Assembly: GCF_018224925.1 (NCBI RefSeq) | Contig: NZ_JAGTUF010000001.1 | Span: 558,001-622,000 of the forward strand | Direction: 5' to 3' | Source of the DNA: Magnetospirillum sulfuroxidans | Lineage (GTDB): Bacteria; Pseudomonadota; Alphaproteobacteria; Rhodospirillales; Magnetospirillaceae | Length of the DNA stretch: 64,000 bases | Part shown: positions 3,847 to 63,688 of the stretch, piece after piece | How positions within the stretch are numbered: the first letter of the stretch is position 1 | How the letters are laid out: the number at the start of each line of letters is the position of its first letter | Notes under the pieces: model-generated | What the model was told of the DNA's origin: nothing | Databases searched by the model: none | What the model saw: the letters and a program-made list of their open reading frames with translations, nothing else | Position numbers and translations under genes: made by a program

Positions 3847-3927
3847 ATCTCGTCCCCCCGAAATGCACACCCCATAGCATGTTAGAGGAGAGGAAATCTC
3901 AAGGAAACCGCCTTTTAGTACTTTACA

Positions 3928-6900
3928 TTAAGTATATGTGGCATCGATGCGGGCGATGTCCACCAGCTTGGCGATCAGCTTTTGCGCCAGCTTCACCCGC
4001 TTGGCCGGTTCGTCCCAGGCGCGGATGAAGACCAGCTTGTGATCGGGACGCAACTTGGCGGCGCCAGCCTGCTGGGCGATGTATTGCACCAGACCGATGG
4101 GATTGGCGAAGACATTGCCGCGGAAGGTAACCACCGCGCCCTTGGGGCCGGCATCAAGTTTTTCCACCCCGGCCTGTTTGCACAAGGCCTTGATGGCGAC
4201 GACTTCCAGCAGATTTTCCACCTCGGGCGGCATCTTGCCGAAGCGGTCGACCAACTCGGCGGCCAGTTGATCGATTTCCTCGCGGTCGGCCAAGGTGGCG
4301 ATGCGCCGGTACAGTGACAGCCGCACCGACAGATCGGCCACATAGGTATCCGGGATCAGCACCGGCGTGCCAAGCGTGATCTGCGGCGACCATTCCTCGG
4401 CGGCGATTTCCCCGTCGCCACCCTTAGCCGCGGCGACGGCTTCCTCGATCAATTGCTGATACAGCTCGATGCCGACCTCGCGGATATGGCCCGATTGTTC
4501 CTCGCCCAACAGATTGCCGGCACCGCGAATGTCCAGATCGTGGCTGGCCAATTGGAAACCGGCGCCCAAGCTGTCCAGCGCTTGCATGACCTGAAGTCGT
4601 TTTTCCGCCGCTTTCGACAAAACCTTGTCGGTGGGCAGGGTGAAATAGGCATAACCGCGCGTCTTGCCGCGACCGACACGGCCGCGCAACTGGTACAATT
4701 GCCCCAGGCCGAACATATCGGCGCGGTGAATGATCAGGGTATTGACGCTTGGCATGTCCAAGCCGGATTCGATGATATTGGTGGAGAGCAGCACGTCGTA
4801 TTGCTTGTCGCCGAAAGCGGTCATCACCTCTTCCAGCTCGGTCGGCGTCAGCCGGCCATGGGCGATGGCGCACTTGACCTCGGGGACCAGCTTGGCCAAA
4901 CGGTCGGCGACGCGGTCGATATCGGCCAGGCGTGGGCAAACATAGAACACTTGGCCGCCGCGATAGCGTTCGCGCAAGATGGCTTCGCGCAGCACCACCG
5001 GGTCAAACGGCAAGATGAAGGTGCGAACCACCAGACGGTCAACCGGAGGGGTGGCGATGACGCTCATTTCCTTGACGCCGGTAAGCGCCAATTGCAGGGT
5101 GCGCGGAATCGGCGTCGCCGTCAGGGTAAGGACGTGCACATCGGCCTTGAGTTGCTTCAAACGCTCTTTGTGACCGACGCCGAAATGCTGTTCCTCATCG
5201 ACAATCAACAAGCCCAACCGCTTGAAATTAATCGATTTGGCCAGCACCGCATGGGTGCCGACGACGATGTCGACCGAACCGTCAGCCAAACCGGCCTTGA
5301 CCTCGGATGCCCGTTTGGCGGTGACCAATCGCGACAATTGCTCGATCTGCAACGGCAGGCCGTTAAAGCGGTCGGTAAAATTGCGGTGGTGCTGGCGCGC
5401 CAGCAACGTCGTCGGAACCACCACGGCCACTTGCATCCCGCTCATGGCGGTGACAAAGGCGGCGCGCATGGCCACCTCGGTCTTGCCGAAACCGACATCG
5501 CCGCAGATCAGCCGGTCCATGGGCCGGCCAGAGCCGAGATCGGCCACCGTATCCTCGATGGCACGGGCCTGATCCTCGGTCTCGGCATAAGGGAAACGGG
5601 CGCAAAACTCGTCCCACAGCCCTTCCGGTGGGCTGAGACTTTCGGATGTGCGCATCTGGCGCTGAGCGGCGATGGCGATCAACTGATCGGCCATGTCGCG
5701 GATGCGTTTCTTCAGCTTGGCCTTGCGCGCCTGCCACGCCGCCCCGCCCAGACGATCAAGCTGGGCGTTGGCCTGTTCCGAGCCGTACCGGGTCAGAACC
5801 TCGATGTTTTCCACCGGCACGAACAGCTTGTCGCCGCCGTCATAGATCACCCGCAGGCAATCATGCGGCGCGCCCGAGACTTGCAGCGTCACCAAGCCGT
5901 CATAACGGCCGATGCCGTGTTCCAGATGGACGACCAAATCGCCTTCGGACAAGGCCGAGGCCTCGGCCAGGAATTGCGAGCCCTTGCGTTTTTTCTTGGC
6001 TGGGCGGGCCAGCCGGTCCCCCAGCAAATCCTGTTCGGTGATCACCGCCACCTCGGCGGTGACAAAGCCGTGATCCAGCGCCAACGCCACCATGGGCAAG
6101 GACTTGGCCGGAGCATTCAAAGCCTCGGCCCAATTGTCCACCTGTACCGGGTTAAGCCCATGATCGGCGAGCACATGCGACAGCCGATCGCGCGAGCCGG
6201 CGCTCCATGCCGCCAGCACTACCCGGCGTTTCTTTTCCTCGGCCACATGCAGGCGCAAAGCTTCGTATACGTTGCCGTCGGGCCGGGTGCGCACATCGGC
6301 GAAATCGCGCCCGGCGCGGCCGCCGGCATCGGCGCCGTCGTCACTGGGGGCAAAGGGCGACAGGTTCAGACTGGGGCGCGCCGTCAGCAGCCGGTCCCAT
6401 TCATCGCGTTCCAGATACAACCGATGGGGCGGCAACGGGTGATAGACCATGCCCGATTCGGCCAGACCGGCGCCGGTGATGGTGCGGCGGGCGTCGTAAT
6501 ATTCCAGCACCAGGGCATGACGGGCGTCGCGGGCCTCCATCACTTGATGGTCAAGCACCGCCAGGGCATCGGGGACATAGGCGAACAAGGTATCCATGCC
6601 GTCATGGAACAACGGCAGCCAATGTTCCATGCCGTTGAACTTGATGCCTTGGGAAATCGCTTCGTACAGCGGATCGGGACCGCTGACCACGCCGAACATC
6701 TCGCGGTAACTGGTGCGGAAACGGGCGATGGAAGCGTCGTCCAAGGGCACCTCGCTGACCGGAGCCAACGAGAATGACTGCAAATGACCGGTTGTGCGCT
6801 GGCTCATCGGATCGAATGAACGGATGCTTTCCAGATCATCGCCGAAGAAATCCAGCCGCACCGGCTCGGGCGTGCCTGGGGGAAACAGGTCAAGGATACC

Positions 6901-49688: not shown

Positions 49689-50522
49689 TCAGAAACGTCC
49701 GAGCAGGGCGGCCATGGCCAAGCGAATGGGCATGGGTTGCGGGCGAAACGAACGGGAATCGAAAACATCGCCGCCCAAGGCCCGCATCCGCCGGCCATAA
49801 GCCGCCGCCAACACCGCCGGCAGCAAGGCGGCAATCGCCGCCCGTGGCGCCTTGTGCCGGCGGGCTTGGACTAGTTGCTGCTGGACCACGCTCAGCAAGT
49901 TCATCACCACGGCGGGCAAGGCCGCTTTGTCGGCCTTGGCCGCCGCGACCATCTCGGGCTCCAGCCCGGCGGCGCGCAGCGCCTCGACCGGCAAGGTCAT
50001 CCAGCCTTGCGCCAGATGAAAGGGTAAGGAACGCAACAGCCCGGTCAACGCCCAAACGGTGCCGACCGGCTGCGCCGCCGCCGCCTCGTGCCCCAGCACC
50101 AGGGCGGCCAAATGGGTCAAGGCCCCCGAAGTGTCTTGGCCGTAAGCGTGCCAATCGGCGATGCTGGCAAAAGGAACGGCGTCGAAATCGCGTTCACGCC
50201 CCTCCAGCAGCCGGTGAAAATGCGTCAATGGCAGTTGACGCGATTCGATCAGTCTCAGCAATTTACCGCCGACCGGATGGCGCAACGCCTCTTCCCGCCG
50301 CGTCCCTTCGACCACATCGCGCCACCATTGCAGACGGATCATCCCGGCCAGCGGCTCACGCACCTGCGCCCGGATCTGGCTAAGCTCCAGGTTAAAGGCG
50401 TACAGCACCCACAAATCGGCCCGCCGTTCGGGCGGCGCGAACATGGCGGTAACGAAACGATCGTGGTCGTGACGGCGCAGGCTTTCGCCCAAGGCGGAAA
50501 GATCAGCAAGATCATCAAGCAA
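49689..50522 (-). CDS. NDUFAF6-like squalene/phytoene-synthase-fold protein without catalytic Asp
   Basis: 277 residues of the squalene/phytoene synthase fold. Where true synthases have the first Asp-rich motif (DDxxD), this reads YAFNLELSQIR; where the second is expected, it reads RSLPFHLAQGW. It therefore cannot bind prenyl diphosphate-magnesium in the normal way. It resembles the NDUFAF6 group, which in mitochondria helps assemble complex I. The start is uncertain: TTG at 50522 has AGGGA upstream; no in-frame ATG or GTG fits without overlapping hpnC. Divergent from hpnCDE. Confidence 0.75.
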   Translation of the reverse strand: MLDDLADLSALGESLRRHDHDRFVTAMFAPPERRADLWVLYAFNLELSQIRAQVREPLAGMIRLQWWRDVVEGTRREEALRHPVGGKLLRLIESRQLPLTHFHRLLEGRERDFDAVPFASIADWHAYGQDTSGALTHLAALVLGHEAAAAQPVGTVWALTGLLRSLPFHLAQGWMTLPVEALRAAGLEPEMVAAAKADKAALPAVVMNLLSVVQQQLVQARRHKAPRAAIAALLPAVLAAAYGRRMRALGGDVFDSRSFRPQPMPIRLAMAALLGRF

Positions 50523-50560
50523 AGCGGAATTTCCCTGTGGGGCAACGATGGATTGCCATA

Positions 50561-50566
50561 TATAAT
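50561..50566 (+). promoter_or_regulatory. Candidate -10 element for hpnC-hpnD-hpnE
   Basis: TATAAT lies 35 bases before the hpnC ATG in the 78-base gap between two divergent genes. No good -35 hexamer stands 16-18 bases upstream, so the promoter may need an activator. Confidence 0.35.
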
Positions 50567-50600
50567 CCTTCTCTGTCGCAACACCAATGGGAGGACGCCC

Positions 50601-51449
50601 ATGGCCCGAGCCGTCGCCGTTCCCCTGCCCGCTTCGGCCGGCAAGCATGCGGGGGACGAGAATTTTCCCGTCGCCTCGTTGCTTCTCAGCCCCACCTTGC
50701 GCCCCCAGGTGTTGGCGTTTTATCGCTTTGCCCGCGCCGCCGACGATATCGCCGACAATCCCGCCCTGGATGGCGAGGACAAGTTGATGCAGCTTGATGA
50801 TTTCGACCGTGGCCTGGGGGGATTGTCGGGGGCGCAACCGGCCTTGGATCTGCACGCGGCTTTAGGCGGCAATTCCCGTCTGCTCGGCCATGCCGCCACC
50901 TTGCTGCATGCCTTTCGCCGTGACGCCATGGTCAATCATTGCCGGTCATGGTCCGATTTGATGGCCTATTGCGCGTGTTCAGCCGCTCCGGTCGGGCGCT
51001 TTTTGCTGGATTTGCACCATCAGCCGGTGAATTTGCACGCACGCGCCGACTGCCTGTGCTGCGCTTTGCAAATTCTCAATCACCTGCAAGATTGCGGTGA
51101 CGATTATCGCACGCTTGACCGGGTCTATCTGCCGGCCGATTGGCTGGCCGCCAGCGGTTTTCCGCTGTCCCAGCTGGCACAGGACAAGGGCGGCGCCGCC
51201 TTGCGCCATGTCATCGACCTGATGCTTGATCGGGTCGAGATGCTGATCGACCAGGCCGCCGGTCTGCCGGCGGCGATGACTGATCGCCGCCTGGCCATGG
51301 AAACCGCGGTGACGATCGAGGTCGCCCAACGCCTTGCCGCCCTGCTGCGGCGCCACGACCCCCTGACCAGACGGGTGCGCTTATCCCCCCTGGCCTATGC
51401 CGGCGCGCTGGTCCGGGGCGTCATCAAGGGATTGCGGCCGACGGCATGA
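50601..51449 (+). CDS. hpnC: Hydroxysqualene synthase HpnC
   Basis: 282 residues, squalene synthase fold. With HpnD and HpnE it makes squalene for hopanoids: HpnD forms presqualene diphosphate, HpnC turns it into hydroxysqualene, HpnE reduces it. The first Asp motif is in FARAADDIADNP, the second in LQILNHLQDCGDD, and RVYLP follows. ATG 50601 has GGGAGGA upstream. Overlaps hpnD by ATGA. Confidence 0.95.
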   Translation: MARAVAVPLPASAGKHAGDENFPVASLLLSPTLRPQVLAFYRFARAADDIADNPALDGEDKLMQLDDFDRGLGGLSGAQPALDLHAALGGNSRLLGHAATLLHAFRRDAMVNHCRSWSDLMAYCACSAAPVGRFLLDLHHQPVNLHARADCLCCALQILNHLQDCGDDYRTLDRVYLPADWLAASGFPLSQLAQDKGGAALRHVIDLMLDRVEMLIDQAAGLPAAMTDRRLAMETAVTIEVAQRLAALLRRHDPLTRRVRLSPLAYAGALVRGVIKGLRPTA

Positions 51450-52243
51450 CCTCTCGATCCTCGTTTTATTGGCCCATGCGGTTGCTGCCCCAGGCCAAGC
51501 GTCAAGCCATGTTCGCCCTGTACGGCTTTTGCCGGGCCGCCGACGATATCAGCGATGGCGCCGATGACATTGCCGTCAAGCAGGCCAAGCTGACCACCTT
51601 GCGCGCCGCCTTGGCCGCCTGGAGCCAAACCGGGATCGCCCTGCATCCGGCCGTTGCCGCCCTGGCTCCGTTCATCCGACGCTTCGACCTGCCCGTCAGC
51701 GAATTAGAGCTGTTGCTGGACGGCATGGAAACCGATGTCAATGCGCCATTGACGGCTCCGGCGCGGCGGGAATTACGCCTGTATTGCCGCCAAGTCGCCG
51801 GCACCGTCGGCATTTTGGCCATCCACATCATGGGCCGCCCCGATGCCGGAACCTTTGCCTTGGCCTTGGCCGAAGCCCTGCAATTGACCAATATCTTGCG
51901 CGACGTTGCCGAGGATGCGCGCCACGGCCGCCTTTATCTGCCGCACGAAGACCTGCATCAGGCCGGGATCATCACCCCAAGCCCGCGCGCCGTGCTGACC
52001 CATCCGGCATTGCCCCGGGCCTGTATGATCTTGCACCAGGCGGCCGAGGAAAAATTCACCGAAGCGCAAGCCGAATTGGCCCGCGTCGGCCGGCGGAACT
52101 TGTGGCCGGCGGTGGCGATGATGGCCATCTATCACGCCTTGCTGCTGCGCCTGCCCCGCCGCGACTGGACGACGCCGCCGCCCCGCCTGGGGCATTGGCA
52201 TCGATTGTGGATCGCAGTTGGGGCGGCCATTCGCTTGGCATGA
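51446..52243 (+). CDS. hpnD: Presqualene diphosphate synthase HpnD
   Basis: 265 residues. Joins two farnesyl diphosphates into presqualene diphosphate. Both Asp motifs are intact: CRAADDISDGADD and LTNILRDVAEDARHGRLYLP. The opening SFYWPMRLLPQAKRQAMFA is typical of the family. Overlaps hpnC and hpnE by four bases each, which suggests a fixed ratio of the three enzymes. Confidence 0.95.
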   Translation: MTSRSSFYWPMRLLPQAKRQAMFALYGFCRAADDISDGADDIAVKQAKLTTLRAALAAWSQTGIALHPAVAALAPFIRRFDLPVSELELLLDGMETDVNAPLTAPARRELRLYCRQVAGTVGILAIHIMGRPDAGTFALALAEALQLTNILRDVAEDARHGRLYLPHEDLHQAGIITPSPRAVLTHPALPRACMILHQAAEEKFTEAQAELARVGRRNLWPAVAMMAIYHALLLRLPRRDWTTPPPRLGHWHRLWIAVGAAIRLA

Positions 52244-53415
52244 CCGCAATCTTGCACATCGTCGGCGCCGGATTGTCCGGGCTGGCCACCGCCGTCGCCG
52301 CCAGCCAAACCGGCCACAAAGTCCGGCTGTACGAAGCCGCCGGCCATGCCGGTGGCCGCTGTCGGTCCTTCCATGATCCGGTTCTCGATCGGGTCATCGA
52401 CAACGGCGCGCACCTTGTCTTGGGCGTCAACCGCAATGCCTTGGCCTTTGCCACCGCCATCGGCGGCATCCAGGCGATGGACGCCCTGCCCGCCCACATC
52501 GCCTTTGCCCATCTGCGCCAGGGCTGGCGCCGCACGGTGACCCCCCGGCATATGCCCGTCAGTCTGGCCGAAGCCTTGCGCGCCTGCCGACCATGGATCG
52601 GCCAAAGCGTGACCGTGGCCGAACATCTGGGCCACCGCCAAGGCTTCGCCGATTTCTGGCAACCGCTTTGCTTGGCCATCTTGAACACCGCCCCGCAACA
52701 CGCCTCGGCCCAATTGTTCGCACGGGTGTTGCGCACGATCTTGCTGGCCGGCAAGGATGGATTGCGGGGCTATGCCTTTCCCCACGGCCTCAGCGCCGCC
52801 TTGATCGATCCGGCCCTGGCCTTGTTGCGCCGAAACGGGGGGGAAATCCACTTTCACCACCGGCTGACCGCCATCAGTCAATCAAAGTTGACATTCACCC
52901 CCAATGACATCCCCTTGACCGCCGCCGATCGGGTGGTGCTGGCGCTGCCGGCATGGGTAGCGGCGGATTTCGTCCCCCAACAGATTCAGTTACCAACCGA
53001 AACAATCGCCAATGTTCATTACCGCTTGGCGTCGGCACCGGATATCCCCAGCCCCTTGGGCTTGCTTGGCGGTGTCGGGCAATGGCTGTTCGTGCGCGAC
53101 GATGTCGCCTCGGTGACCATCTCCGCCGCCATTGCCGCCCCCGATCCTGTCGCCCTATGGGCGGAAATCGCCCCGCTGCTGGGGCAAGAGCCCCCCATCC
53201 CCCCCCATCGGGTCGTGTGGGAAAAGCGCGCCACCTTGTCGCACCGCCCCCATGTCCTGAACCATCGCCCTGGTACGCTCAGTGGTCTTGAAGGGGTGTT
53301 TCTGGCCGGCGATTGGCTGGCCTCGCCATGGCCCTGCACCATTGAATCCGCCATTTCTTCTGGCCTGATGGCCGCGCGGGCGGCGTTGGGTCGCGACGAT
53401 CTCCGATTCTCGTGA
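52240..53415 (+). CDS. hpnE: Hydroxysqualene dehydroxylase HpnE
   Basis: 391 residues, FAD-dependent amine-oxidase-like fold. The dinucleotide motif is at the N-terminus (HIVGAGLSGLATAVAASQ, then GHAGGRCRSF), and the C-terminal FAD-contact element is in GVFLAGDWLASPWPCTIESA. Removes the hydroxyl from hydroxysqualene to give squalene. Last gene of the hpnCDE unit; the squalene-hopene cyclase gene is not in the window. Confidence 0.94.
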   Translation: MTAILHIVGAGLSGLATAVAASQTGHKVRLYEAAGHAGGRCRSFHDPVLDRVIDNGAHLVLGVNRNALAFATAIGGIQAMDALPAHIAFAHLRQGWRRTVTPRHMPVSLAEALRACRPWIGQSVTVAEHLGHRQGFADFWQPLCLAILNTAPQHASAQLFARVLRTILLAGKDGLRGYAFPHGLSAALIDPALALLRRNGGEIHFHHRLTAISQSKLTFTPNDIPLTAADRVVLALPAWVAADFVPQQIQLPTETIANVHYRLASAPDIPSPLGLLGGVGQWLFVRDDVASVTISAAIAAPDPVALWAEIAPLLGQEPPIPPHRVVWEKRATLSHRPHVLNHRPGTLSGLEGVFLAGDWLASPWPCTIESAISSGLMAARAALGRDDLRFS

Positions 53416-57369: not shown

Positions 57370-57786
57370 CTAATGCCGCGTCAGCTTTTTGATGAAAATC
57401 CAGAAGGTTCCCAAAATCGGGCTGGTTTTCAGGTGAATGCGGACCTTGTAAGCGAGGTTTTCAACCGCGCAATCAAACACCACATTCATGCCGTCGCCAT
57501 CGACGCCGCGCCGGAATTCCTCGGCGATCATCGACGCACCGGCCCAAGGGGCGATCTGGGCGAAGAATTTGGCGCCGCCCTTCGACGCCGCCGCAGGACC
57601 GCGATCCCCCGGTTCGGTATCGATATAGCTTACCACCGCGCCATCGCGGTCAAGCTCCGCCGCGCCGAAAGGCAGACGCTCCACCTCGGCGACGGATAAA
57701 CGAAGAAGCGGATTTTCCGGGTCGTCTTGCGCAAATGCAAAGACGGTCATATTCCAAGGCCCGGCCTGTGTCGTGATTGTTGGCAT
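57370..57786 (-). CDS. Photoactive-yellow-protein-like PAS protein lacking the chromophore Cys
   Basis: 138 residues, cytoplasmic. From residue 38 it aligns without gaps to photoactive yellow protein of Halorhodospira as I know it: LPFGAAELDRDGAVVSY for LAFGAIQLDGDGNILQY, 19 residues to the shared FF, then AQIAPW for KDVAPC. Tyr54 and Glu58 match PYP Tyr42 and Glu46, which bind the chromophore. Trp81 (codon 57544-57546) stands at PYP Cys69, which carries p-coumarate. The C-terminus GTFWIFIKKL matches the last strand. Divergent from the chemotaxis operon, 86 bases away, so a sensory role is likely. ATG 57786 is preferred by length; its ribosome site is weak. Confidence 0.8.
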   Translation of the reverse strand: MPTITTQAGPWNMTVFAFAQDDPENPLLRLSVAEVERLPFGAAELDRDGAVVSYIDTEPGDRGPAAASKGGAKFFAQIAPWAGASMIAEEFRRGVDGDGMNVVFDCAVENLAYKVRIHLKTSPILGTFWIFIKKLTRH

Positions 57787-57872
57787 GTTTAGTTCTTTTG
57801 GCCCTATTCCCAAGTCAGGAATTTGACGTATTATCGTTCGTGGGTCCACAGGGAAAACGCGGTTACACTTTT
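57787..57872. promoter_or_regulatory. Divergent promoter region of the PYP-like gene and the chemotaxis operon
   Basis: 86 bases between two divergent starts. It must hold promoters for both, and is A/T-rich compared with its surroundings. I see no consensus pair I trust. Confidence 0.45.
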
Positions 57873-58181
57873 ATGGAAATCAACGAGCAGAATGGAAGAC
57901 TTGTAATTGAACTGCCGGCTGTGCTTGACCTGCCGGCCGCAGCCGAGATTCGTGATTTGCTCATTGATGCCGCCGCCCGTGACACTGCCGCCGACGTTAT
58001 TCTTAACTTTCATAACGTTGACCGCATTTCAACCGCCGCCATTCAAGTGACCTTGGCCGCCGCCGCCGCTCTGCGCCTCGCCGCTCGCCGGCTGGAAGCC
58101 GAGGCGGTAAGCCCGGCTGTGGTCGATGCCTTCCGCAATCTGGGCCTTGCGTCCGATCTTGATCAACTTTTAGACACCTGA
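57873..58181 (+). CDS. STAS-domain protein (anti-sigma-antagonist-like)
   Basis: 102 residues, single STAS fold (RLVIELPAVLDLPAAAEIRD, then VILNFHNVDRISTAAIQV). The ISTA segment holds Ser/Thr at the phosphorylation position of SpoIIAA-like proteins. First gene of the chemotaxis operon. STAS genes at this place occur in other alphaproteobacterial che clusters; the role there is not settled. The ATG at 57873 has only a weak upstream site. Confidence 0.85.
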   Translation: MEINEQNGRLVIELPAVLDLPAAAEIRDLLIDAAARDTAADVILNFHNVDRISTAAIQVTLAAAAALRLAARRLEAEAVSPAVVDAFRNLGLASDLDQLLDT

Positions 58182-58193
58182 CAGAGGATGAAC

Positions 58194-58560
58194 ATGGCTA
58201 AGTGCGTTCTGGCCGTCGACGATTCGAAAACCATGCGCGACATGGTGTCGTTTACCTTGCGCGGCGCCGGCTACACCGTCGTGGAGGCCGAACATGGAAT
58301 CGCCGCCCTGAAGGTGCTGCAAGGCCAGAAGGTCGATGTCATCATCACCGATGTTCAACATGCCCGAAATGGATGGCATCACCCTGGTGCGCCGTGTTCG
58401 CGGCCTGCCCAGCTATACCGGCACGCCCATTCTTATTCTGACCACCGAAAGCGATCAGAGCAAAAAGGACGAGGGCCGCTCTGCCGGGGCCACCGGCTGG
58501 ATCGTCAAGCCGTTCAGCCCCGACAAACTGTTACAGATCGTCGCCAAGGTCTGCCCCTGA
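58194..58560 (+). pseudogene. cheY: cheY response regulator with a one-base frameshift
   Basis: Codons from ATG 58194 (after AGAGG) read as CheY up to the phospho-acceptor: CVLAVDDSKTMRDMVSFTL, then QKVDVIITD with Asp53 at 58350-58352. One extra G at 58353 shifts the frame. Skipping it restores FNMPEMDGITLVRRVRG, the Thr in LILTTES and the Lys in WIVKPFSP, ending at 58560. Everything on both sides is intact, so the change is recent or a sequencing error. Read as written, the product keeps Asp53 but has a foreign tail and stops at 58571. An intact gene would give 121 residues. Confidence 0.88.
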
Positions 58561-58587
58561 GGTCGCCTTAGTTTAAGGAACGACGAA

Positions 58588-60663
58588 ATGTCAGACGATC
58601 AAGGCTATGATCTGTCACAATTCAAGGCTACCTATTTCGAGGAATGCGCCGAGCTGTTGGCCATGGCCGAGGAAACCATCGCCCGCCTGCAAGAAGGCAG
58701 CGGCAGCGACGAGGATTTGAACGCCGTTTTCCGTTGTGTCCACTCCATCAAGGGCGGCGCCGGCGCTTTCGCCTTCGACGATTTGGTTAATTTCGCCCAT
58801 GTGCTGGAAACCGCGCTCGATCACCTGCGTTCGGGCCGGGTGGCGCTGACCCCGCACATGGCCGACCTGATGGTGCGCGGCAACGACGTCTTGGGCGATT
58901 TCGTTCGCGCCGCCCAAGCCGGCACGGCCTTGCCGCCCAATCACGGCGCCGATATCTTGGCGCAACTGAACACCCTGATCGGCGGGGAACAAACCACGCT
59001 CAAGCCGGTTCTCGCCACGCCGCCAACAGCACCGCCCGCCAGCGCCGAAGCCGCTAAAACCTTCCATATCAGCTTTCGCCCCGCCCCGGACATGCTGCGC
59101 ACCGGCAACGACCCGTTGTTGATGTTTCGGGAATTGGCCGGTCTGGGCGATTTGTCGCTTGTGGTCGACCGTTCGGCCTTGCCGCAACTGACCGAGATGG
59201 AGTCTTCGCGCTCTTATCTGTCGTGGAATGCCACGCTGGTCACCAGCAAGGGCCGCAACGCCATCGACGAGGTGTTCGAATTCGTCGCCGGCGACACCGC
59301 CGAAATCATCATCACCGAAGGCGATGCCGCCGCCGCTTTTGTCGGTGAAGCCGAGGAAGGCGAGGGTTGGGGCTTGTTCGCCCCCCCGCCCGTCGAAACC
59401 CATCCTGTCGCCCCCTCCGCCCCCGCCCAAGCGGCCAAACCGGCGGGCACCGCTCCGGCCGCCGGCGGCGATGCCGTGCATACGGCGTCGATCCGCGTCG
59501 ATCTGGACAAGATCGACCGCTTGGTCAACATGGTCGGCGAACTGGTCATCACCCAAGCCATGCTGGGACAACAGGCCAGCGGCTTCACGGTCGAATCCCA
59601 CCCCGAGCTGATCCAAGGCTTGCAGGAACTGTCGCATCACACCCGCGAATTGCAAGAAAACGTCATGGCCATCCGGGCACAACCGGTCAAGGCGCTGTTC
59701 TCGAAGGCGCCACGTCTGGTGCGTGATCTGTCGGGCAAGCTGTCCAAGCAGGTCCGCTTGGTGATGAGCGGCGAGAACACCGAGGTGGACAAGACCGTTA
59801 TCGAGCAATTGTCCGATCCCCTCACCCACCTGATCCGCAACGCGCTGGACCATGGCATCGAGACGCCGGAAGAACGCATGGCGGTGGGCAAACCGGCCGA
59901 AGGCACCATCCATCTGGGGGCGGAACATCGCTCGGGCCGCATCTTCATCCAAATCCAAGATGACGGGCGCGGCATCAACCGCGAACGGGTGCTGGCCAAG
60001 GCCCTGGAAAAAGGGCTGGTCGAGCGTGGCCAGCAACTGACCGACGAACAGATCGACATGCTGATCTTCGCGCCGGGCTTTTCCACCGCCGCCGAGGTTT
60101 CCGACGTTTCCGGCCGGGGTGTCGGCATGGACGTGGTGCGCAAGAACATCCAAGACGTCGGCGGCCGCGTGGTGGTGCAATCCACGCCGGGGGTCGGGTC
60201 GCGTTTTATCTTGTCGCTGCCGCTGACGCTGGCGGTGATGGATGGCATGCTGGTGCAAGTCGGCGGCCAGCGTTACGTGCTGCCGCTGACCAATATCGTC
60301 GAATCATTGCGGCCGACGGCGCAACAGGCGCGCTCGCTGGTGGATGTGGGCGAAGTTCTGACCATTCGTGGCGAATACATCAACCTGATGCCGCTGCATG
60401 CCATTTTCGGCATCGAAAACGCCATCACCGACCCGACCAAAGGCTTGGTGGTGATCGTCGAGACCGAAGGCGGCGAGCGGGTCGGCCTGCTGGTGGATGA
60501 ATTGCTGGGTCAGCAGCAAGTGGTGATCAAATCGCTGGATTCCAATTTCCGCCCGGTACAGGGCATTTCGGCCGCGACCATTCTGGGCGATGGCCGGGTC
60601 GCCTTGATTCTTGACGTTAGCGCCTTGCGGCAAATGGGGGCCTTGGCCCTGGCGGCGCAATAG
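58588..60663 (+). CDS. cheA: Chemotaxis histidine kinase CheA
   Basis: 691 residues. Hpt domain at the N-terminus with the phosphorylated His52 in RCVHSIKGGAGAF; a middle region of about 130-300 that includes a stretch unlike the classic P2 domain; dimerisation helices (DKIDRLVNMVGELVITQAML); the ATPase domain with HLIRNALDHGIE near 417, IQDDGRGIN and GRGVGMDVV; and a CheW-like domain at the end. It phosphorylates CheY and CheB. All catalytic motifs are present. Confidence 0.96.
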   Translation: MSDDQGYDLSQFKATYFEECAELLAMAEETIARLQEGSGSDEDLNAVFRCVHSIKGGAGAFAFDDLVNFAHVLETALDHLRSGRVALTPHMADLMVRGNDVLGDFVRAAQAGTALPPNHGADILAQLNTLIGGEQTTLKPVLATPPTAPPASAEAAKTFHISFRPAPDMLRTGNDPLLMFRELAGLGDLSLVVDRSALPQLTEMESSRSYLSWNATLVTSKGRNAIDEVFEFVAGDTAEIIITEGDAAAAFVGEAEEGEGWGLFAPPPVETHPVAPSAPAQAAKPAGTAPAAGGDAVHTASIRVDLDKIDRLVNMVGELVITQAMLGQQASGFTVESHPELIQGLQELSHHTRELQENVMAIRAQPVKALFSKAPRLVRDLSGKLSKQVRLVMSGENTEVDKTVIEQLSDPLTHLIRNALDHGIETPEERMAVGKPAEGTIHLGAEHRSGRIFIQIQDDGRGINRERVLAKALEKGLVERGQQLTDEQIDMLIFAPGFSTAAEVSDVSGRGVGMDVVRKNIQDVGGRVVVQSTPGVGSRFILSLPLTLAVMDGMLVQVGGQRYVLPLTNIVESLRPTAQQARSLVDVGEVLTIRGEYINLMPLHAIFGIENAITDPTKGLVVIVETEGGERVGLLVDELLGQQQVVIKSLDSNFRPVQGISAATILGDGRVALILDVSALRQMGALALAAQ

Positions 60664-60743
60664 CGTTCCGTTTGCCGTGAAAGCAATGGCCTGTGGCCGT
60701 TGCCGTTTGAAACCTTGGTCTGTATTTGCCAGAGGGATGGATT

Positions 60744-61235
60744 ATGCAGAACGCTGCCCCCGCACCCGAAGTCCAAACCGGAGGGACGCGCCAATTCATA
60801 TCGTTCACCATCGGTGACGAAGAATACGGCGTCGATATCATGGCCATCCGCGAGATCAAAGGCTGGACGGCTTCGACCGAATTGCCCAATACCCCCCAAT
60901 ATATGCGCGGCGTCATCAACCTGCGCGGCGCCATCGTGCCTATCTTCGACTTGCGATCACGCTTTTCCGGCGGTCTGACCCAAGCCTCGGCGCGACATGT
61001 CATCATCGTCGTTTCCGTGCATGACCGGGTGATTGGCATCCTGGTCGATGCCGTCGCCGACATCATCACCGTTTCCGCCGCCGACATCCAGCCGGTGCCT
61101 GAATTGGATCATCACGATCATTCGGGCTTTCTGACCGGCTTGGTCACTGTCGATGGCCGCATGGTCGCCCTGCTCGACCTGCATCAGTTGTTCGATATCG
61201 AATTAGTCGCCGACGCCATTACCGCGGCCGCGTGA
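60744..61235 (+). CDS. cheW: Chemotaxis coupling protein CheW
   Basis: 163 residues. Two SH3-like lobes; [20 protein letters not shown] and [17 protein letters not shown] are family signatures. It links receptors to CheA. ATG 60744 follows AGAGGG. The N-terminal 15 residues are unstructured. 80 bases separate it from cheA. Confidence 0.96.
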
Positions 61236-61252: not shown

Positions 61253-63688
61253 ATGTCGACCAAAACTTCCGGCCTGACGGTCAAAGGCCGTATCTACGGC
61301 GGCTTCCTGCTTATCCTGGCCTTTTTGGCCGCGGTCGCCGGAGTCAGTTTCTTCGGCTTTTCCACCGCGGAAAAGGGCACCAACGACCTGAGCTTCGTTT
61401 CGGGCGCGACCCTGCGCGTGTCTCAAATCGAGCGCGAAGTGGTCGGCATACGCCGCAACGCCTATCTGTATGCCGACAGGGGCGACAAGGCGGCGCTGGA
61501 CCGCATCCACGAATTGGAACCGTCCTTGCGCAAGAACCTGAAGGACGCGCTGGCGGCGACCGTCAGCCCCGAGCGCAAGGCCTACCTGGAACGGATGACC
61601 CTGCTGTTCGAGCAGTACATCAACAATCTCAATCGCGCCGTCGAACAAAAAAATCGGCGTGACGAGGTTTACAGCGTCAGGCTGGTCCCCATCGCCAACG
61701 AGCTGACCAAGGCCTTGTCGGGCCTTCTCGACGCCACCTTGGCCGCCCATGACATGGAAACCGCCGCTCTTGCCGGCAAGGCGCAGGAACAGATGTTGCT
61801 GATGCGCATCCAGGCGCTGCGTTTCGTCGATAACCCGACCCAAGCGGTGATCGACACCTACAAAGAGCAATTCATCGTCGCCACCCGGACGATCAAAGCC
61901 CTATCGGACAGCGAAAAAGACGCCGAACACCGCAAGGTCATCGATTTCGTTCGCGACAATCTGCCCAATTACGACCGCCTGTTCCTGGAAATGGCCCAGT
62001 TCACCATGCAGGTGGACAATCTGGTCAATAAGGAAAACTCGGTCCTGGCCTCGGAATTCTCTGATCTGGCGGCCAAGACCAAGGCGTCGCAGCAGGCCTA
62101 TATGAACGAGATCGAACATTCGACCGTGAACAGCGTCCAGGCGCAAAAGCTGACCGCCACCATCGTTTCCATCGCCGCCATCGGCCTGGGCCTGCTGTTC
62201 GCCTGGCTGATCGCCCGTTCGATCCTGACCCCGATCGGCGCCATGACCGGCGCCATGGGCGAACTGGCCGGCGGCAAGCTTGACCTTACCGTTCCGGCAT
62301 TGGAGCGGACCGACGAAATCGGCGCCATGGCGCAAGCGGTGCAGGTGTTCAAGCAGAACGCCATCGACAAGGTGCGCATGGAAGAGCAGCAGCGCGCCCG
62401 CGAGGAAGCGGAACGCCAGGCCGAAGCGGCGCAACGGGCCCGCGAGGCGGCGATCGTCGCCGAAGTGGCGGAAGTGGCCAAGGCGGCATCGGAAGGCGAT
62501 CTGGATCGCCGTATCGATCTGACCGGCAAGGACGGCTTCCTGCTCAACCTGTGCGAGGGCGTCAACAATCTGGTCAAACTGACCGGGATCGCCCTGACCG
62601 ATGTCGCCGGCGTGCTGTCGGCGGTGGCCCGCGGCGATCTGACCCAGCGCATCACCAACAATTACAACGGCCTGTTCGGCCAGTTGAAGGGCGACGTCAA
62701 TCAGACCGCCGACAAGCTGTTTGAAATCGTCACCAACATCAACTCGTCGGCCGGTCAGATCGGTTCGGCCGCGTCGGAAGTCGCCGCCGGATCGCAAGAT
62801 CTGTCCGAGCGTTCGGAGCAGCAAGCCAGCGCGCTTGAAGAAACCGCCGCCTCCATGGAAGAACTGGCCGCCACCGTGCGCCAGAATGCCGCCAACGCCC
62901 AGCAAGCCAATCAATTGGCCGCCGGGGCCCGCGAAGTCGCCGCCGGCGGCGGTCAAGTGGTCTCCGACGCCATCGACGCCATGGGCCGCATCGAAAGCTC
63001 CAGCCAGAAGATCGAGGATATCGTCGGCATGATCGACGAAATCGCCTTCCAGACCAATCTGCTGGCGCTGAACGCGGCGGTCGAGGCGGCACGAGCCGGC
63101 GATGCCGGCAAGGGCTTCGCCGTCGTCGCCCAGGAAGTGCGCAATCTGGCCCAGCGTTCGGCCCAGGCCTCGAAAGAGATCAAGGGGCTGATCGCCGAAA
63201 GCTCGACCCAGGTGCGCTCTGGCGCCGATCTGGTCAAGGGCGCCGGCAAGACCCTGGAAGACATCCTGGGCAGCGTCAAACGAGTGGCCGATATCGTCTC
63301 TGAAATCGCCGCCGCCTCGTCGGAACAGGCCAGCGGTATCGACCAAGTCAACGCCGCCGTCAGCCAGATGGACGAAATGACCCAGCAAAACGCGGCCTTG
63401 GTGGAAGAATCCGCCGCTGCCGCCCATGCCTTGGAAGACCAGTCGCGCGAACTCAATCGCCTGATGGGCTTCTTCCATACCGGTGAAGCCGCCGCTGCGG
63501 TTGAGCAGGCGTCGTTCCGCCCGGCGGCCAAGCCGGCGGCCAAACCCGCCGCCAAGCCGGCCATGAAACTGGCGGTCAAGGCCAAGCCGGCCCCGCAACG
63601 CGGCCATCTGGCCAAGTTGCAGCAAAAGGCGGGGGCTCCGTCGCCGACACCGACTGCTTCTAAAGATGAAGATTGGGCTGAATTTTAG
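61253..63688 (+). CDS. Methyl-accepting chemotaxis protein with C-terminal CheR tether
   Basis: 811 residues. Membrane helices near 15-37 and 305-328 enclose a four-helix-bundle periplasmic domain of about 260 residues. A HAMP domain ([18 protein letters not shown]), a linker coiled coil and further HAMP-like repeats ([24 protein letters not shown]) lead to the signalling hairpin ([19 protein letters not shown]). The tail is a flexible Ala/Lys/Pro linker ending in DWAEF, which fits the aromatic-x-x-aromatic pentapeptide that binds CheR/CheB in E. coli receptors. cheR is the next gene. ATG 61253 follows AGGGGAAA. Confidence 0.94.
63525..63562 (+). repeat. Short Ala-Lys-Pro repeat inside the receptor tail
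   Basis: The 12-base unit encoding roughly AKPA occurs three to four times in tandem ([15 protein letters not shown]), forming the flexible linker before the CheR pentapeptide. Confidence 0.7.

Follow-up and report, generated by a model that had tools for sequence, protein, structure and literature searches.

A tryptophan-type relative of photoactive yellow protein beside an F7-like chemosensory operon in Magnetospirillum

Photoactive yellow protein (PYP) is a model PAS photoreceptor, but for the most part its signalling partners have yet to be identified (PMC9664959, PMC12826048). What, then, is the function of a PYP-like protein that has a tryptophan in place of the chromophore cysteine, and whose gene faces a chemotaxis operon? 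The question arises from the window analysed here, i.e. a 64-kb stretch (64,000 nucleotides) of Magnetospirillum sulfuroxidans DNA. A first-pass annotation, made from the sequence alone, had reported in it a PYP-like protein with a divergent che operon alongside, and both are borne out by profile matches and by the gene map (Table 1). The protein will be referred to as PYP-W. No RNA families or tRNAs were found in the window. At 50088-53415 two ORFs resembling squalene/phytoene synthases stand in a row with one resembling an amine oxidase; these are perhaps hopanoid genes.

Table 1. Features of the PYP-W locus (window coordinates)
Feature	Position	Strand	Remarks
PYP-W, 138-aa PYP-family PAS protein	57370..57786	-	Trp81 at the Cys69 site; ATG at 57786, stop codon 57370-57372 included
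Trp81 codon (PYP Cys69 equivalent)	57544..57546	-	numbering from the start codon
Divergent intergenic region, 86 bp	57787..57872	.	between the PYP-W and STAS genes
STAS-domain protein, first gene of the che operon	57873..58181	+	Pfam STAS E 6e-9
cheY	58188..58571	+	listed ORF leaves the receiver frame about halfway
cheA	58588..60663	+	Hpt, H-kinase_dim, HATPase_c, CheW
cheW	60726..61235	+
MCP	61253..63688	+	HAMP, HAMP_2, MCPsignal; no PAS match; C-terminal DWAEF

PYP ancestry of PYP-W

By its sequence and its predicted fold PYP-W is placed in the PYP branch of the PAS proteins. The PYP profile TIGR02373 matches residues 16-135 (E 4.3e-17) with a score of 62.3 bits, which is below the equivalog cut-off of 143.05. 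With phmmer against the PDB, PYP-W matches PYP with an E-value of 1.1e-14, and every one of the 33 sequences hit below E 0.001 is PYP or PYP-derived, FAST and nanoFAST being among them. Aligned to PYP, residues 16 to about 109 show no gap, a longer stretch than the roughly 45 residues claimed initially. The alignment has an offset of 12 and reproduces the correspondences given at that time: Tyr54 to Tyr42, Glu58 to Glu46, Arg62 to Thr50, Pro64 to Arg52 and Trp81 to Cys69.

The AlphaFold2 model of PYP-W, built from 16 sequences, has a mean pLDDT of 85.9, the weak stretches being residues 1-10 and 61-70. When this model is compared with the PDB by Foldseek the first 41 hits are PYP or PYP-derived and the next one has an E-value of 0.02. 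For the best hits the TM-scores by query are moderate, at 0.54-0.59; the rmsd is about 11 angstroms to full-length PYP and 3.3 to nanoFAST. The N-terminal part of PYP has short helices; the PYP-W model has a strand at residues 14-18 and no helix before residue 32. The large rmsd to full-length PYP would thus reflect a differing N-terminal part in PYP-W. TIGR02373, the PDB matches and Foldseek rule out an unrelated PAS family, the alternative envisaged by the first-pass annotation; even up to E 1 there is no match to any Pfam family, generic PAS models included, and membership of the CetB-type FAD-PAS proteins is for this reason unsupported. A DNA-binding domain was found neither with Pfam or TIGR02373 nor in the model.

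Distribution, pocket residues and chromophore supply

In the host family 26 of 55 genomes have a match, 24 of them, own genome included, of the Trp type and two of the Cys type (G013 and G004; L025/L112 and L026/L114). These two are omitted from all PYP-W counts, and L027-L041, 15 named records that duplicate 15 of these 24 proteins, add nothing to the counts. Magnetospirillum aberrantis SpK, M. molischianum DSM 120 and M. fulvum are among the named carriers, and others are uncultured Magnetospirillum and Phaeospirillum. In a tree of 41 proteins (24 of the Trp type, 16 others and PYP) the Trp type forms one clade with support 100/100 and a long stem (1.55). This tree has a midpoint root only, and long branches are flagged for L024 and two outside rows. 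As far as these sequences tell, the Trp group has a single origin.

Profile searches found no Trp type outside the host family in the samples covered, which partly overlap: class (385 genomes, 9 matching), phylum (299 genomes, 5 matching), both with own genome included, and order (297 genomes, 29 matching, 24 of them the Trp group). Site 69 is Cys in 17 and Ser in 2 of the 19 non-Trp loci that were aligned from the class, phylum and order matches, two of these loci lying inside the host family. A further search gave 47 matching genomes, 38 of them only weakly (E 3.9e-6 or worse), and another gave 9 likewise weak matches among 35 genomes; the weak matches, presumably generic PAS proteins, were left unaligned. 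In L082 and L083 (G681 and G558), from another family of the same class, open frames of about 900 aa include PYP-like domains whose site 69 is Ser and whose site 46 is Ala.

Within the Trp group site 69 is Trp in all 24 proteins of the family alignment, which rules out a lone mutation or a sequencing error at this site. Each of the 24 genes adjoins STAS-cheY, so that the check on orthologues proposed in the first-pass annotation comes out in its favour. The equivalents of Glu46, Phe62 and Trp119 are present in 24/24 and that of Tyr42 in 22/24, with His in the other two. The remainder of the pocket has changed: Tyr94 is replaced by Cys and Phe75 by Ile or Val in every sequence, Phe96 is never retained, and the Met100 position is deleted throughout, the Tyr98/Met100 loop being two residues shorter than in PYP (four in L024). 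Thr50 is kept in a single protein and Arg52 in none.

Across the 24 sequences 36 of 138 columns are invariant, among them the N-terminal Gly-Pro-Trp, Asp-Thr-Glu-Pro around Glu46, Cys106 and three tryptophans (11, 81 and 129); the N-terminal AGPWNMTV segment is conserved. Since this amounts to about a quarter of the columns, the invariance of Trp81 is not extraordinary by itself, and the concerted change of the pocket residues carries more weight. No internal stop occurs within the PYP match in any of the 24. The side-chain volumes summed over 11 pocket sites, a quantity that does not measure the cavity itself, fall short of the sum for PYP without chromophore by 33-200 cubic angstroms. This deficit is not special to the Trp group, since the same sum ranges from 0 to -210 in 16 Cys/Ser-type loci.

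Tyrosine ammonia lyase (TAL) is a member of the aromatic amino-acid lyase family PF00221. No match to PF00221 was found in the 24 PYP-W genomes, own genome included. The family is present in 2 of the 55 host-family genomes. One is G013, the only genome there whose PYP exceeds the TIGR02373 cut-off; in the 14.5 kb around this Cys-type PYP a search for che genes found none. The lyase absence is nevertheless not decisive, since G004 has a Cys-type relative and no aromatic lyase either, and PYP-W hosts may take up p-coumarate. Among pyp operons only 5% were found to contain a TAL gene, and p-coumarate genes are often elsewhere or hard to recognise (PMC12826048). Reaction-centre genes occur in 3/24 PYP-W genomes against 3/31 of the others. 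Thus the distribution of PYP-W is independent of phototrophy, and a link between the two was rejected. Nor does the che neighbourhood contain a recognised chromophore gene. With its covalent p-coumaric acid site lost, PYP-W should not run the classical PYP photocycle; that it is without standard PYP photochemistry is well supported by the sequences, and it probably no longer works as a PYP-type light sensor.

The divergent operon and its receptor

In its own genome the operon extends past the window with cheR, cheD, cheB, a Pfam-less protein and an EAL protein. The resulting order STAS-cheY-cheA-cheW-MCP-cheR-cheD-cheB is that of the published stage-1 F7 cluster (PMC7184735), the cheR-cheD-cheB part having been read in own genome only. 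Two other features of that cluster, two cheW genes and an Aer2-like PAS receptor, were not found in own operon, which has one cheW and a PAS-less MCP. By its gene order the operon may be called F7-like, and in our reading the STAS gene would correspond to the antagonist of the published order. The two genes downstream of cheB, for the Pfam-less and the stand-alone EAL protein, are at L111:3120-3803 and 3852-4619; the latter hints at a c-di-GMP link of the operon.

The listed cheY frame covers positions 1-50 of the 111 of the receiver profile, and the remainder was seen by eye in a neighbouring frame, so that the frameshift is either genuine or an artefact of assembly. In 18 of 23 related loci, where its length was read, cheY encodes 116-124 aa. 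Matches in pieces also occur in L090 (MCP, cheW and cheA) and L086 (MCP), possibly through frameshifts by sequencing error.

PYP-W is divergent from STAS followed by cheY in all 23 relatives' loci that were fetched as well as in the window. In 21 of the 23 cheA comes next, and the other two contigs end before it. The cheW and receptor genes are seen in fewer loci because contigs end; L100 has no cheW match. The genomes with a strong STAS match (E 4.8e-20 or better) are the very 24 of 55 that have PYP-W, with both at one locus. Weaker STAS matches occur without PYP-W in G012, G014 and G015.

The region between the PYP-W and STAS genes has a conserved core. In 23 of 24 loci the two genes are 83-90 bp apart, in the remaining one 114 bp. 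Of the 24 orthologous regions 21 contain TTTGMCGTATTAT and 23 contain GGTCCAC. When own genome was searched for a regulon sharing the 16-base core AATTTGMCGTATTATC, the only exact match was that at the PYP-W locus; three further matches had two mismatches, the reversed control giving none, and the idea of a genome-wide regulon was dropped.

The 24 loci include 16 operon receptors, 13 of which are complete in their contig. Twelve of these 13 end in a pentapeptide of the CheR-tether type (DWAEF in 11), and the thirteenth, in L086, ends early and may be frame-shifted. Among the 55 MCPsignal matches of own genome the operon MCP reaches 184.5 bits and the next one 139.6, which suggests that in this host the array may rely on one dedicated receptor. 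Two of 54 MCPs belong to such a high score class in G021. We take this genome to be probably that of M. gryphiswaldense MSR-1; if so, its PYP-W gene, the sole TIGR02373 match of the genome and of the Trp type, probably lies beside cheOp4. In M. gryphiswaldense, for which 55 MCP genes are given, cheOp4 is an F7 pathway and its deletion impairs aerotaxis (PMC12442639).

The receptors of the PYP-W operons have HAMP, HAMP_2 and weak helical-bundle matches; PAS was found in none of the 7 scanned. By contrast, STAS-cheY-cheA-cheW is not accompanied by PYP-W in G014 and G015, where a same-strand receptor precedes STAS; this receptor has three PAS stretches and MCPsignal scores like those of the window MCP. 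As both genomes are of one genus, this contrast counts as one event. In G012, also without PYP-W, an MCP-like gene occupies the place divergent from STAS. By analogy with CetB, which serves CetA, the contrast with G014 and G015 suggests that PYP-W stands in for a fused PAS. The operon MCP nevertheless has its own presumed periplasmic region and so need not have a PAS partner.

Possible roles and comparison with known systems

The reading that we favour, at slightly under even probability, is that PYP-W has lost the covalent p-coumarate site and is a soluble, separate input or regulatory partner of the adjoining F7-like array. Co-inheritance and the pocket changes make a role in the array likely; PYP-W would act on the operon receptor or on CheA, CheW or STAS. 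The first-pass annotation had proposed either a different ligand in the same pocket or sensing by contact, and a possible input to the che operon. In the mechanism that we consider most likely the kept Tyr42-Glu46 pair would form, with the invariant Trp81 and Cys106, a remodelled pocket that could either bind a small non-covalent ligand or contain a redox switch at Cys. The altered N-terminal part would then pass its state to the PAS-less receptor, on the model of CetB signalling to CetA and of the fused PAS domains in Aer2-type F7 receptors. That the PYP-W gene is divergent from, and not co-operonic with, the che genes counts against the favoured reading. A bolder version, which we think rather unlikely, has the PYP fold turned a single time into a chemical or redox sensor that is independent of light, with a pocket lined by Trp and Cys, and that works as detached PAS input to an F7-type array. 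If true, a membrane receptor and a free sensor would replace a PAS-bearing receptor, and proteins now listed as photoreceptors from magnetotactic and purple bacteria would be misnamed.

A partner of the array need not bind any ligand. Trp81 could simply pack the core of a scaffold that acts solely by contact with che components, as is suggested by the exchange of Cys for the bulky Trp while Phe75, Tyr94 and Phe96 shrink, which resembles core repacking, and by the conserved AGPWNMTV segment. The volume sum below that of PYP speaks against such packing, though several Cys-type relatives equal it, and there would be little to hold Tyr42 and Glu46 in place during evolution; we regard this explanation as doubtful. 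Sensing of light through another, non-covalent chromophore or through the protein's own tryptophans is improbable. The three invariant Trp would fit it, and so would the matches to FAST and nanoFAST, which bind fluorogens without a covalent bond, but neither the che neighbourhood, with no recognised chromophore gene, nor a distribution independent of phototrophy does.

The conserved intergenic core would be explained if PYP-W regulated transcription at the shared divergent promoter region instead of signalling to the array. We consider this quite improbable, as the PYP match takes up residues 16-135 of 138 and no DNA-binding domain was found. That PYP-W could be the relic of a decaying photoreceptor, retained by linkage, agrees with the missing chromophore cysteine; it is very improbable for a protein with 36 of 138 columns invariant and uninterrupted by stops in all 24 sequences.

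Read as a partner of the array, PYP-W and its chemosensory operon would provide a small, testable system for the study of light-free signalling by a PYP fold to chemoreceptor arrays, and of what such a fold may sense in place of light. PYP photoreceptor genes have been given for MSR-1, SP-1, BB-1 and Phaeospirillum (PMC6532209), and this count for magnetotactic bacteria may include proteins unable to carry p-coumarate in the usual way.

PYPs without Cys69 are already known, in the PYP_like branch and in methylobacterial Ppr, and a shift of function towards redox sensing has been proposed for them (PMC9664959). The PYP_like branch may include the PYP-W group. In the text covered, that paper mentions neither a Trp variant, nor Magnetospirillum, nor a whole che operon, and its methylobacterial Ppr variants are multidomain kinases, unlike PYP-W. 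Neither a Trp variant of PYP nor its tie to a che operon was found in the literature searched, mainly open-access main texts; within it, a Trp branch tied to one che operon appears undescribed.

PYP-W resembles the PYP of H. halophila (TIGR02373) over residues 16-135, in its PAS fold and in Tyr42 (22/24), Glu46, Phe62 and Trp119. It differs by Trp for Cys69, Cys for Tyr94, an extended N-terminal segment and genomes free of the lyase. A coupling of PYP to chemoreceptors has precedents. Twelve PYP-MCP fusions are described (PMC12826048), but these contain Cys69 and are fused. Ppr of Rhodocista centenaria is, like PYP-W, PYP-containing and chemotaxis-linked, but there CheW binds the kinase domain and not the PYP domain (PMC2993699). 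The PYPs of Leptospira and H. halophila have been proposed to signal through sensor-less chemoreceptors in the manner of CetB and CetA (PMC9664959). The CetB/CetA pair of Magnetospirillum likewise combines a soluble PAS protein with a separate receptor; CetB however binds FAD and forms a gene pair with CetA, whereas PYP-W is of the PYP family and divergent from the che operon (PMC12442639). The stage-1 F7 cluster, described for gamma- and betaproteobacteria, has in common with the present operon the STAS-type gene, cheY, cheA, cheW, receptor, cheR, cheD and cheB, as well as the CheR pentapeptide on the receptor; the PYP-W operon is distinguished from it by its one cheW, its PAS-less receptor and the PYP-W gene upstream (PMC7184735).
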